A stretch of DNA of 64,000 bases. Origin: Cupriavidus necator A5-1 (GTDB lineage: Bacteria > Pseudomonadota > Gammaproteobacteria > Burkholderiales > Burkholderiaceae). A model generated the notes under the pieces. The model did not search any database and was not told the origin of the DNA. It saw only the letters and a program-made list of their open reading frames with translations. The translations under genes and the position numbers were made by a program. The stretch spans positions 2,604,001 to 2,668,000 of the forward strand of contig NZ_JQLI01000001.1 in the NCBI RefSeq assembly GCF_000744095.1, read 5' to 3'. Of this stretch, positions 2,476 to 6,118 are shown one piece after another. Position 1 is the first letter of the stretch; each line of letters begins with the position of its first letter.

Positions 2476-2565
2476 TCAGTGGGCGCCGACAGGGCGATTC
2501 AGCAGCGCTGCCAAGCCATGCAAAACGATCTGCCGGCATCCATTGTTCAACTCACGTATATCGAT

Positions 2566-3024
2566 ATGGCGACCAAAGCGAAACCGACCGCGAAGACTGC
2601 AACCAAGCCCGCTGCCAAGAAGGCCGCGGCAACCAAGGCACCCGTGAAGGCTGCCGCCAAGAAGGCCGCGCCGGCCAAGAAGGCTGCTCCCGCTGCTGCG
2701 CCCGTTGCGCGCCCGCTGAAGGACACCTTCAACAAGTCGAGCCTGGTCGCTCACCTGGTAGCCCAGACCCAGCTGGAAGCCAAGGCCGTGAAGACGGTGC
2801 TGGCTCACCTGGAAAACACCATCATCAGCGCGCTGAACAAGAAGGGCGCCGGCGAATTCACGCTGCCCGGCCTGCTGAAGGTCACGGCCCAGCAAGTGCC
2901 GGCAAAGAAGAAGCGCTTCGGCAAGGACCCGTTCACGGGCGAAGAGCGTTGGTTCCCGGCCAAGCCGGCCAGCGTCAAGGTCAAGGTCCGTCCGCTGAAG
3001 AAGCTGAAGGACGCCGCAGCCTGA
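2566..3024 (+). CDS. HU-family nucleoid protein with histone H1-like N-terminal tail
   Basis: A 152-residue DNA-binding protein built from two parts. Residues 1-48 are almost only Lys, Ala, Pro and Thr (repeated PAAKKAA-type units), like the tail of eukaryotic H1 and bacterial AlgP/BpH1-like proteins. Residues about 52-145 form an HU/IHF-type domain (NKSSLVAHLV, GEFTLPGLLKV, RFGKDPFTGE). HU itself is about 90 residues, so the tail is the extra part. Such fusions are known in Burkholderiales and are expected to compact or bridge DNA. Start chosen at MATKAK, where the basic tail begins; a promoter lies at 2449-2475 and a terminator follows at 3053-3077. Confidence 0.9.
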   Translation: MATKAKPTAKTATKPAAKKAAATKAPVKAAAKKAAPAKKAAPAAAPVARPLKDTFNKSSLVAHLVAQTQLEAKAVKTVLAHLENTIISALNKKGAGEFTLPGLLKVTAQQVPAKKKRFGKDPFTGEERWFPAKPASVKVKVRPLKKLKDAAA

Positions 3025-3052
3025 TCTGCGCCACTTTGTCCTGACGAAAAAG

Positions 3053-3077
3053 GAGCCGCTTGCCGGCTCTTTTTTTT
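3053..3077 (+). terminator. Rho-independent terminator after the HU-H1 gene
   Basis: GAGCCG (3053-3058) pairs with CGGCTC (3064-3069) around a 5-base loop and is followed by eight T residues (3070-3077). An A-rich stretch before the stem would allow some activity from the other strand as well. Confidence 0.9.
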
Positions 3078-3148
3078 CGTGCTGGCACAGCCGAATGCGC
3101 CTGACCAAAGTAAATCGCCGGCGAAAGACCGGCACCGGAGGAGACAAC

Positions 3149-4129
3149 ATGCCCAGTTTGCAATGCCGCCTGTGGCGGCTGGCCTTGCGCCTGGTGCGCC
3201 GCAAGCAGCGGTTTGCCAGCGCGCAGGCGCTCCATGATGAAATCCACCGGCGCCGCGAGGCCGGCCGGGCTTTTCCTTCAAAGCGCCTGTGCGCCCGGCA
3301 TGCGGTCAGCCTGGAGCGGGTGGCGGGGATGGAGGTCTATACCGTGCAGCCCAGGACCGCGACGGCCTCGGGGAAAGCGCGCCACATCCTGTACCTGCAT
3401 GGCGGCGGCTACGTGTTCGACATCGTCAGCCAGCACTGGGATTTCATTGGCAAGCTGGTCGACGCGCTCGGCTGCGCGGTGACGGTGCCCATCTATCCAT
3501 TGGCGCCGGAGCACACCCATCGCGACGTGTTCGGCGCGATGCTGCCGCTGTGGCAGGCCATGCAGCAGCGCTATCCGGATGCCGACCTGACGGTGATGGG
3601 GGACTCCGCCGGCGGCGGCATGGCACTGGCGCTGGCGCAGGTGCTGCGTGACTGCGCCCAGCCGCTGCCGCGCCGCCTGGTCCTGCTGTCGCCGTTCCTG
3701 GACGCCACCGGAGAGAACCCGGGTATCGATGCATTGGAACCGCTCGACCCGATGCTGTCGCGTCCCGGGGGCATCGAATGTGGGCGGGTCTATGCCGGCG
3801 CCGACCCAGTGACGTTGCCGCAGGTCAGCCCGATGCGCGGCGTGCTGCGCGGGCTGCCGCCGACCACCCTGTTCATCGGCACGCACGACATCCTGCTGCC
3901 GGATTGCAGGCGCTTTCGCGAACTGGCGCAGGGGCAGGGCCTGCCGCTGCAGTATTTCGAATATGAGGGGATGTTCCACGTCTGGATGCTGCTGCCGATG
4001 CCGGAGGCAGACGCGGCATTTGCACAGATCGTGCAGGCGGTGCGGCGAGATGACTCGCCCGGCACGGCCGGTGCCGCCCAAGGGGTGCATACCGCCGATG
4101 CGGCAAAGGAAGTGATGGATGCGGGATGA
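3149..4129 (+). CDS. Alpha/beta hydrolase, HSL-type esterase
   Basis: A 326-residue carboxylesterase/lipase of the hormone-sensitive-lipase class (Abhydrolase_3). The oxyanion-hole motif HGGGYV begins at H84, the nucleophile elbow GDSAGGG has S153, and the rest of the triad is D247 (GTHDILLPD) and H277 (GMFHVW). The substrate is probably a short-chain ester, but this cannot be fixed from sequence. There is no signal peptide, so it is likely cytoplasmic. The ATG at 3149 is preceded by GGAGGAG. It is monocistronic, following the terminator of the HU-H1 gene. Confidence 0.9.
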   Translation: MPSLQCRLWRLALRLVRRKQRFASAQALHDEIHRRREAGRAFPSKRLCARHAVSLERVAGMEVYTVQPRTATASGKARHILYLHGGGYVFDIVSQHWDFIGKLVDALGCAVTVPIYPLAPEHTHRDVFGAMLPLWQAMQQRYPDADLTVMGDSAGGGMALALAQVLRDCAQPLPRRLVLLSPFLDATGENPGIDALEPLDPMLSRPGGIECGRVYAGADPVTLPQVSPMRGVLRGLPPTTLFIGTHDILLPDCRRFRELAQGQGLPLQYFEYEGMFHVWMLLPMPEADAAFAQIVQAVRRDDSPGTAGAAQGVHTADAAKEVMDAG

Positions 4130-4154
4130 CGGGGGCTTTGCCATCTGGCGCGGA

Positions 4155-4197
4155 TTTAACCCACGTCAAACTGGGGCCCCGGACGCCCCCATAGAAT
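4155..4197 (+). promoter_or_regulatory. Candidate FNR/ANR-dependent class II promoter
   Basis: An imperfect palindrome, TTTAAC-CCAC-GTCAAA (4155-4170), resembles the FNR/ANR consensus TTGAT-N4-ATCAA. The right half matches well; the left half has A for the important G. A -10 element TAGAAT lies at 4192-4197. A start near 4204 would put the palindrome centre at about -41.5, the exact position for a class II FNR activator. No protein gene starts downstream on this strand; a terminator follows at 4265-4294. Confidence 0.5.
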
Positions 4198-4203
4198 CGG
4201 TCA

Positions 4204-4294
4204 GGTCATGGGTGCGGGGGCGCTCCCCATGACGCAGCTCCCGGCGTCTTCCCCGGAAGCTTCCGCCCGCGGCCACAATGGTCGCGGGCTTTTT
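4204..4294 (+). ncRNA. Candidate small regulatory RNA of about 90 nt
   Basis: Between the esterase and the convergent tautomerase gene lies a short unit with its own promoter signals and terminator but no credible ORF. The predicted RNA opens with a hairpin (GTCATGGG 4205-4212 with CCCATGAC 4226-4233), has a C/U-rich middle containing UCUUCCCC that could pair with ribosome-binding sites, and ends in a strong terminator hairpin with a U tail. Size, layout and the FNR-like promoter resemble anaerobically induced sRNAs such as FnrS in enterics and ANR-dependent PhrS in Pseudomonas; no sequence kinship is claimed. Confidence 0.45.
4265..4294 (+). terminator. Rho-independent terminator
   Basis: GCCCGCG (4265-4271) pairs with CGCGGGC (4283-4289), extended inward by GCC/GGT, and is followed by five T residues. 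It ends the candidate small RNA and can also stop read-through from the esterase gene. Confidence 0.8.
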
Positions 4295-4333
4295 ATTTGG
4301 CAACCATTTATTTGGCAGCCATTTGCCTGCAGC

Positions 4334-4702
4334 TCAGGCCACCACCTGCTTGGCGAAGGTCGCGCGTTCCATCTCGCAGACCTCCACCGAGACCTGCACG
4401 TTCTGCCTGCCGTCGGCGCCGGTGCGCACCGCTTCGGCAATCACGTCGCACACCGACTGCGCCAGCGCCTGGCGCACGGCGGTGTCGCGGCCGTCAAGGA
4501 TCGACAAGCGCGCATGGACGAATGCGCGCTCCACGGCATCCACGCCCTGCCGGTAGGTCTGCAGGGTGATGAAGCGCGACTTGATGTCCGCCTCCTGGAA
4601 CTGCCCCGACGCCAGCAGCGCCGCATTGGCTTCATCGAGCAGCTCGTCCGGCGAGCAGTTCAGGCGGGTGTTTTCGGTGAGTTCGATGACGAGGTGCGGC
4701 AT
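4334..4702 (-). CDS. 5-carboxymethyl-2-hydroxymuconate isomerase-like tautomerase
   Basis: A 122-residue protein of the CHMI branch of the tautomerase superfamily, the isomerase step of homoprotocatechuate degradation. The mature protein must begin with the catalytic Pro-1, so the start is set at MPHLVIELTEN, although the frame is open further upstream. Length fits E. coli HpaF (126 residues). No other homoprotocatechuate genes are nearby, so it is an isolated copy and may act on a related substrate. Confidence 0.85.
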   Translation of the reverse strand: MPHLVIELTENTRLNCSPDELLDEANAALLASGQFQEADIKSRFITLQTYRQGVDAVERAFVHARLSILDGRDTAVRQALAQSVCDVIAEAVRTGADGRQNVQVSVEVCEMERATFAKQVVA

Positions 4703-4793
4703 GGTGGCGTTCTGGGCAATAGTCGACTGTGGGCGGCGCAAGTGCCGGCGCAAGCCAGCATGATACGGGAACGTTGCGCTGGAGTAAGCTCAC

Positions 4794-5360
4794 ATGGTCG
4801 TCACACGATCCCGCATGCGTCGGCCAGACACCATGGAAATGTTCAGCCTTGATCTCGTGCTGCGCCTGCTTGCCGGGCTCATGACCGGTGCCCTGATCGG
4901 GCTGGACCGCAACCTGCGCGGCAAGGCGGCCGGCATGCGCACGCTCGGTCTGGTGTCGCTCGGCGCGGCCACCGCCGTGTGCCTGGTGACGCTGGGCGGG
5001 CATCCGCCGGATGCGCTGTCGCGCGTGCTGCAGGGTGTGCTGACCGGTATCGGCTTCCTGGGGGTGGGCGTGATCGCCAAGCATGGCGCGCACGCGCGTC
5101 CGCAGGGGCTCACCACCGCCGCCGCGATCTGGCTGGCTGCGGTGCTGGGGGCGGCGGCCGGGGCAGGGAATTACGTGGTCACGGGAACCGCGCTGCTGCT
5201 GGGCATGGCGCTGCTGTGGGTCGGCGGACGTTTCGAAGTGGCGCTGCACCGGGCGCTGGAGGGGCACAACGGCAAAGATCCGCACCACAAGCATGAGGAC
5301 CGTGCGGAGCGGGACGAGGCCGATCCCGGCAAGCCCCGCGACCGCAGCGGCGAGGAATAG
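4794..5360 (+). CDS. MgtC/SapB-family membrane protein
   Basis: A 188-residue inner-membrane protein with the MgtC signature: GALIGLDRNLRGKAAGMRTLGLVSLGAA followed by GIGFLGVGVIAK and GLTTAAAIWLAA in the next helices. About four to five membrane segments lie between residues 20 and 145, and the C-terminal 40 residues are charged and hydrophilic. MgtC proteins support growth at low magnesium and modulate F-ATPase or phosphate uptake in some pathogens. The start at 4794 has GGAG 9 bases upstream; MEMFSL at 4833 is an alternative. The tail is shorter than the ACT-like domain of classical MgtC. Confidence 0.85.
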   Translation: MVVTRSRMRRPDTMEMFSLDLVLRLLAGLMTGALIGLDRNLRGKAAGMRTLGLVSLGAATAVCLVTLGGHPPDALSRVLQGVLTGIGFLGVGVIAKHGAHARPQGLTTAAAIWLAAVLGAAAGAGNYVVTGTALLLGMALLWVGGRFEVALHRALEGHNGKDPHHKHEDRAERDEADPGKPRDRSGEE

Positions 5361-5458
5361 CGACGCAACGCTGCCGTTCAGGCTTATCGGGAACCCAGTG
5401 CGGCCTCGATGCGCTGCACGCGCTGGCGCTGCTCGGGCCCCTGGACGGGAGCAAAGGC

Positions 5459-5487
5459 GAACGGGGCGCCATACTGGCGCCCCGTTC
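5459..5487. terminator. Strong hairpin between convergent genes
   Basis: GAACGGGGCGCC (5459-5470) and GGCGCCCCGTTC (5476-5487) form a perfect 12-bp stem with a 5-base loop. It lies between the MgtC-like gene (plus) and the HAD-like gene (minus). There is no T-run on either side, so it is a stable 3'-end or bidirectional block rather than a textbook intrinsic terminator. Confidence 0.5.
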
Positions 5488-5515
5488 GGACTGCGGTATT
5501 AACCTGCAAACGCGC

Positions 5516-6118
5516 TCAGGCGTGCACCAGCCTTTGTTCCAGCTCGGTGCCGGCGCGCGCCGCGCTGTTGAAGCGCTCGGGGTTTTCGCGAGCCAGTTGC
5601 TGCAATTGCGCGAGCTTCGCCTTCAGGTCCGGGTCCAGCCGCGGTGCGGGCGCAACGGTGGAAGGGCAGGCAACGCCCAGGATATCCAGGGCCTGCTGGA
5701 AGTTGTCGACGGTCAGGCCGACGGCCGGATCCACGCTCACCAGGTGTGCGCGCTGCGGCTCAGGGATCGATTCGGGCGCCGCGCACGACATGATCACGTA
5801 GTGGATCGGGGCGTTGCCCTGGGCAAAATATGCGGCGATTTCAGCGCCGTGGCCACCTGCGGCCGGCGGCGTCATGCCTTCGACCTGCAGATCCAGCTGC
5901 TGCAGGATCGCAGCCGGCGTGCCGCGGCGCCAGGCGTCGGACACCACCACGCGCGCACCGGCCACGCCGAACAGCCGGCGGACAAAGCCCAGTGCCACGG
6001 GATCGAAAAACCTGACGTCGCGCACTGTGCCCGAATCCGGGATGCCGCCGAGGCGGGCGCGGGAGCGGTCGGAGTACAGGACGCCGGGGATGTCCAGCAT
6101 GATGATTCGTTCAGCCAT
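5516..6118 (-). CDS. HAD-like protein with altered motif I
   Basis: A 200-residue cytoplasmic protein that resembles the small HAD-domain proteins whose first motif is usually hhhDhDGVL. Here it reads IIMLDIPGVL (residues 5-14): the nucleophile Asp is kept but the second Asp, the general acid, is Pro. Motif II appears as VVVSDAWR and the rest of the fold is recognisable to about residue 155; the C-terminal 45 residues are helical. Phosphatase activity is doubtful. AGGAA precedes the ATG. It follows the chemotaxis receptor on the same strand after 192 bases that contain a GCCGG hairpin (6242-6258). Confidence 0.7.
   Translation of the reverse strand: MAERIIMLDIPGVLYSDRSRARLGGIPDSGTVRDVRFFDPVALGFVRRLFGVAGARVVVSDAWRRGTPAAILQQLDLQVEGMTPPAAGGHGAEIAAYFAQGNAPIHYVIMSCAAPESIPEPQRAHLVSVDPAVGLTVDNFQQALDILGVACPSTVAPAPRLDPDLKAKLAQLQQLARENPERFNSAARAGTELEQRLVHA

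Follow-up and report, generated by a model that had tools for sequence, protein, structure and literature searches.

The stretch at positions 4155 to 4294 of the window (the whole 64,000-nucleotide stretch of Cupriavidus necator A5-1 DNA analysed here) lies between two convergent genes and raises the question of whether it encodes a small RNA (sRNA) under the control of FNR. A sequence-only reading had proposed this from an FNR-like palindrome, a TAGAAT hexamer and a strong terminator some 90 bases further on. The locus proves to belong to a Cupriavidus family that has three old loci, termed A (that of the window), B and C, plus copies on megaplasmids. The features of the window are as follows.

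4156..4169, plus strand: FNR-type operator TTAACCCACGTCAA, found by sequence reading, with its centre at 4162.5, equal to -41.5
4192..4197, plus strand: -10 hexamer TAGAAT, present in 28 of 28 locus A copies
4204..4294, plus strand: proposed small RNA of 91 nt, from its fold (z -4.35) and conservation in the genus, with +1 placed from the -10
4205..4233, plus strand: hairpin 1, the conserved 5' module, from fold and covariation
4214..4223, plus strand: hairpin cap GCG-GGGG-CGC, identical in 142 of 144 copies
4236..4261, plus strand: possible second hairpin with a C/U-rich loop, in the minimum-energy fold only and differing between loci
4265..4294, plus strand: intrinsic terminator, a stem at 4265-4289 and then a T-rich tail
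3149..4129, plus strand: alpha/beta hydrolase gene (PF07859), the upstream neighbour, outside the unit and upstream in 5 of 28 locus A copies
4334..4702, minus strand: CHMI gene (PF02962), the convergent downstream neighbour, outside the unit and present in 27 of 28 locus A copies

The palindrome lies where the sequence-only reading had placed it, centred at -41.5 from an implied start near 4204. Its right half-site GTCAA is perfect, and in its left half, TTAAC, an A replaces the consensus G. It is the sole TTRAYN4RTYAA site in the 64-kb window, against 0.05 expected from 100 order-1 Markov samples, and a box followed by TANNNT at 20-24 bases occurred in none of 100 such samples of the window. 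A generic sigma-70 scan of window positions 3000-6000 found no promoter. The proposed promoter of the unit in the window possesses no -35-like hexamer, as is expected of a promoter that depends on an activator. The terminator closes the 91-nt unit at the distance first estimated, with a stem of 11 pairs, 9 of them G-C. The fold of this RNA has -53.1 kcal/mol, and none of 200 shuffles was equally stable. The convergent neighbours are confirmed. A mechanical ORF (4208-4852, 214 aa) begins within hairpin 1 and is not kept at locus A, where 11 of the 28 copies stop after 15 codons.

Conservation was followed in 60 Cupriavidus genomes, from which 144 distinct copies were examined, identical copies being counted once (the copy on plasmid I of C. 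taiwanensis, for example, is merged as L111). BLAST with the unit of the window found matches in 40 of the 60 genomes and, in a sample of 299 genomes of the family, 31 matches, 30 of them within the genus; the remaining one, L033, looks like chance and was excluded from every count. In the alignment of these matches the palindrome, the -10, the 5' hairpin and the terminator are kept jointly, and more divergent relatives share the same layout. A covariance model built from 29 copies (R1) matches 59 of the 60 genomes, the exception being a 54%-complete assembly, G047, which has no copy at all. The genome of the window itself has three hairpin-bearing copies, namely that of the window, C8:3052690-3052783 and C8:76719-76817, and three weaker R1 matches, all without hairpin 1.

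The copies fall into three syntenic loci, of which A is found in 28, B in 59 and C in 52 of the 60 genomes (the overlapping sequence classes c3 and c5 are both locus C); all 28 genomes with locus A also have B and C, and additional B-type copies are found in three genomes. Neighbouring genes were compared for 138 copies. Locus A is followed by the convergent CHMI gene in all copies except one. Locus B is followed by a gene for a solute-binding protein in 47 of 62 copies, with a ferritin-like gene upstream in 23 of 62 and, in 28 of 62, a gene that we take from its sequence to be clpB, the other neighbours being named by domain. Locus C lies behind genes for a dicarboxylate symporter and a GntR regulator in 47 of 48 copies and in front of a dehydrogenase gene in 34 of 48. 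Megaplasmid copies occur on a C. taiwanensis plasmid and on pHG1 of C. necator H16. The latter has phaP2 on one side and hmpA on the other; a single small hypothetical gene precedes hmpA, and the nap genes are a few kilobases off. The plasmid search with the locus A sequence gave no match.

The elements of the unit are conserved together, and the lack of joint conservation that would have spoken against the sequence-only reading is not observed. The box TTGAYN4RTCAA is perfect in 112 of 144 copies and has one mismatch in the other 32, and the distance from box start to hairpin core is 58-61 bases in every copy. In 143 of 144 copies a -10-like hexamer (A at position 2, T at position 6) follows the box, 35-37 bases from its start; the core GCGGGGGCGC is identical in 142, and a strict test for the terminator stem is passed by 138. 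Chance origin of the layout is ruled out by this conservation. The copies were located partly by the core itself (model and regular expression), so that its invariance is partly built in; no fetched R1 match above 42 bits lacked the cap. Core matches at another distance from a box were excluded from the box and core count, as was the copy G028:C7:22-118 (L423), interrupted by a contig end, from all counts. Copies L172, L173, L176 and L181, missed by the first regular expression, were added, as were L424 and L425; L201 was counted although it lacks the terminator arm, and L116, with a one-base deletion in the core, was left out of alignment A2. At locus A the mean identity is 0.95 for the box, 0.96 for hairpin 1, 0.54 for the spacer and 0.34-0.35 for the flanks, so that by sequence identity the DNA around these units is near background.

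The folds of the three copies in the genome of the window beat their shuffles (z -4.35, -6.63 and -3.89), and in each a middle hairpin stands between hairpin 1 and the terminator. A covariation search in related genomes had been suggested with the original proposal of a 5' hairpin, and there the stem of hairpin 1 below the cap does covary. For loci B and C, 35 distinct hairpins were compared: 93.8% of the cells are paired and 5 pairs are altered on both sides; the covariation score was reached by none of 500 shuffles and falls when the register is slid. Inclusion of locus A gives 94.3% paired, but here the register slid by +3 comes near in score, 0.134 against 0.151. Hairpin 1 is under constraint at the level of RNA. 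The C/U-rich core, proposed as single-stranded, may be partly folded: in the minimum-energy fold some of it forms the hairpin 4236-4261, but this middle hairpin is found in single-sequence folds only, being absent from both consensus folds and having no covariation support. C/U-rich stretches are present at the loci, but their sequence differs from locus to locus. The linker of locus B, TTGTCTACCCGTTTCC, is identical in 56 of 63 copies.

Alternatively, the unit could belong to a neighbouring gene, as terminator or 3' end of the one before it or as leader of the one behind it, with no RNA of its own, and at loci B and C the next gene does lie on the same strand. Synteny makes this hardly credible: 27 of 28 locus A copies face a convergent gene downstream, and only 5 of 28 have the hydrolase gene upstream. 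On plasmids the unit is found in other contexts, and it retains its own promoter-like elements and a terminator at its end. A small peptide as the product is also very improbable. An 8-codon ORF, M(E/K)xRGR(S/T/A)S, starts with an AUG almost at the RNA start; 57 of 63 copies at locus B and 37 of 51 at locus C keep it intact, and many leaderless mRNAs are described for C. metallidurans (PMC7563307). However, the ORF is missing from all 28 locus A copies, which disfavours a peptide as the general product. Moreover, its RGR codons are CGG GGG CGC in nearly every copy, with no synonymous change, and covariation of a base pair (A-U, U-A, C-G) links codons 3 and 7. Constraint on the RNA is therefore preferred over a peptide.

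The regulator of locus A is a more serious matter. One-mismatch boxes are distributed as 28 of 28 copies at locus A, 4 of 64 at locus B and none of 52 at locus C, and every locus A copy has the left half-site TTAAY together with the TAGAAT -10; TTAAY is found in none of the 64 locus B copies, whose mismatches are at another base, and in no locus C copy. The -10 hexamers of locus C are poor, for example CATCAT or CACACT. The G altered in going from TTGAY to TTAAY is a base read by FNR, and FNR might thus bind the locus A operator weakly or not at all. This is the main reservation, and it concerns locus A, which may have weaker FNR binding or may have switched its regulator. The same sRNA family with locus A under another regulator of the Crp/Fnr family (linked for instance to NO or nitrate), so that the siblings would report different signals, is possible but rather less probable than control by FNR. 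The genome encodes 16 Crp/Fnr-type proteins over the Pfam cut-off, one of which combines a TPETLSR helix with a sensor part in which no cysteine cluster was seen. Against a switch, the right half-site and the spacing of locus A match those of B and C; in NCBIfam the closest assignment of the TPETLSR candidate is FtrB, below cut-off, and no NO sensor is named for it. The operator pattern of locus A, TTAAYCNNRGTCAA, was matched at one place in the genome, the site of the window itself not being matched by it.

Two further sequences related to Crp/Fnr-type proteins were encountered. A C-terminal Fnr-like fragment with LATISR replacing LETVSR lies at G000:C1:2390738-2390920 (L340) and is apparently a pseudogene; it was rejected as a regulator of locus A because the rest of the protein is missing in frame. 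A Crp-type DNA-binding domain (PF13545) lies at G000:C1:2602029-2602256, about 1.7 kb to the left of the window and about 6 kb from the sRNA.

Fnr itself is present. The Fnr encoded in the genome of the window possesses N-terminal cysteines (CSTC-x5-C) and the LETVSR helix, exceeds the NCBIfam Fnr cut-off and resembles solved FNR regulators. Matches at E <= 1e-40 are found in 59 of the 60 Cupriavidus genomes and clear orthologs, with 76% identity or more, in 57; those of G045 and G047, both incomplete, are only 42-48% identical. Among the fairly complete genomes only G051 has no Fnr match at all, and in its single copy of the unit the box has one mismatch and the -10 and a hairpin arm are altered. 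Such decay is expected if the unit is useless without Fnr; G051 is however one draft genome, 91% complete and 5% contaminated, in which the missing fnr may be an assembly gap. A single box mismatch is also seen in three more locus B copies, from genomes that do have fnr.

Taken together, the locus is likely to encode an sRNA of about 91 nt, one of a family of sibling FNR-activated sRNAs in Cupriavidus, and we infer transcription, FNR dependence, action in trans and targets from sequence. The RNA of the window is probably switched on upon oxygen loss. As oxygen falls, Fnr would regain its iron-sulfur cluster and dimerise, and the dimer would bind the operator at -41.5 for class II activation of a promoter with a -10 and no -35. 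The terminator would then stop the transcript at about 91 nt, and the RNA would probably act in trans via its C/U-rich parts and possibly the hairpin cap. The near-invariant, G-rich hairpin 1 may be a docking or pairing module common to the siblings, and the diverged part behind it may direct each sibling to targets of its own, most likely functions unneeded without oxygen, which would be repressed. A search of 21 genomes for the exact 11-base complement of the locus B linker yielded no target candidate: of the readable matches listed, about half are hits to the sRNA's own gene and the others are scattered, two of them lying in one conserved gene, apparently on its non-coding strand.

A more tentative proposal, somewhat doubtful at present, is that the family is defined by its GCG-GGGG-CGC cap and not by the variable C/U-rich part. 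The cap, near-invariant above a covarying stem, may be bound sequence-specifically by a protein or a C-rich RNA, and the units would then be FNR-driven decoys or docking RNAs peculiar to Cupriavidus, with locus A responding to a second signal. Oxygen loss would in that case free as many as three RNAs, which would titrate a single shared factor or deliver it.

The family was sought outside the genus with a second model, R2, consisting of box, -10 and hairpin 1. R2 separates Cupriavidus cleanly from the rest of two partly overlapping samples: in the family sample 40 genomes of the genus match and none of the other 259 exceeds 26.8 bits, and in the order sample 396 other genomes reach at most 26.5 bits. 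Weak extra R2 matches, possibly decayed or remote copies, are found at G007:C1:1864318-1864403 (35.9 bits) and G024:C2:946557-946634 (29 bits). None of the 27 R1 loci outside the genus in the order sample (22 to 35 bits) has the core GCGGGGGCGC in the vicinity of its match, and those displayed look like mere terminators. A pattern scan of named sequences gave at least 116 stretches; among the matches listed, 58 have hairpin arms and 58 do not, and of the 80 that are titled the 41 with arms are all from Cupriavidus and the 39 without are from none. Another genus may have a relative whose core has changed.

FnrS of the enterobacteria is an FNR-activated intergenic sRNA with its own terminator. 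The Cupriavidus unit is like FnrS in its FNR-type promoter, its intergenic position and its own terminator, and differs from it in having three loci with a common G-rich hairpin cap and no Rfam match at threshold. AniS of Neisseria is an Hfq-dependent sRNA under FNR control (PMC5039591) and is synthesised in oxygen limitation according to a title cited in that paper. By description alone, AniS and the proposed Cupriavidus RNA are alike in an FNR-linked promoter, a small RNA and a betaproteobacterial host; AniS is not known to form a set of siblings, in contrast to the three Cupriavidus loci, and no Rfam family matched the window. NmsRA and NmsRB of Neisseria meningitidis are likewise sibling sRNAs of a betaproteobacterium, for which section headings of the source name anti-Shine-Dalgarno control (PMC5362039). 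They are under RelA and the stringent response, whereas the Cupriavidus units have an FNR-type box and dispersed loci.

Rfam release 15 gave no match over the gathering threshold in the window and, at E <= 1, sub-threshold matches only for five loci of the family, so that no known Rfam family provides an identity. The sub-threshold matches include RF02278 (Betaproteobacteria toxic sRNA; 25.3 against 50 bits), RF00519 (suhB/mmgR; 24.3 against 41 bits) and RF02837 (anti-hemB; 22.5 against 49.5 bits), and the resemblance to these three is in the C-rich 3' half and terminator, the alignments starting past hairpin 1. A transcriptome study of C. metallidurans under copper reports 35 putative sRNAs (PMC7563307), which may overlap with the family. 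In line with the remark that none was known at this locus, no earlier description of this family was found in the literature searched. FNR-controlled sRNAs are known as a kind; the family, its three-locus make-up and the near-invariant cap appeared in no search.

C. necator H16 serves as a model organism in work on hydrogen oxidation, denitrification and bioplastic production. If the proposed control is true, a genus-wide, oxygen-linked layer of RNA regulation would have been overlooked in Cupriavidus, with one member on pHG1 between phaP2, a phasin gene, and hmpA, a gene for NO detoxification. With one part near-invariant and another diverged, such old paralogs would also offer a clean system for studying how sibling sRNAs share and divide targets.

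Some other sequences near the copies deserve mention. About 0.9 kb from a locus B copy, L041:307-386 is a possible second sRNA, with a sub-threshold match to the anti-hemB model of Rfam (31.7 against 49.5 bits) and a fold z of -3.09. Directly behind a locus C copy, L046:1297-1432 is a long inverted repeat matched on both strands, below threshold, by several microRNA models. In the window, the end of a plus-strand frame at 2500-3024 reads as HU-like, with a long N-terminal extension rich in lysine and alanine.
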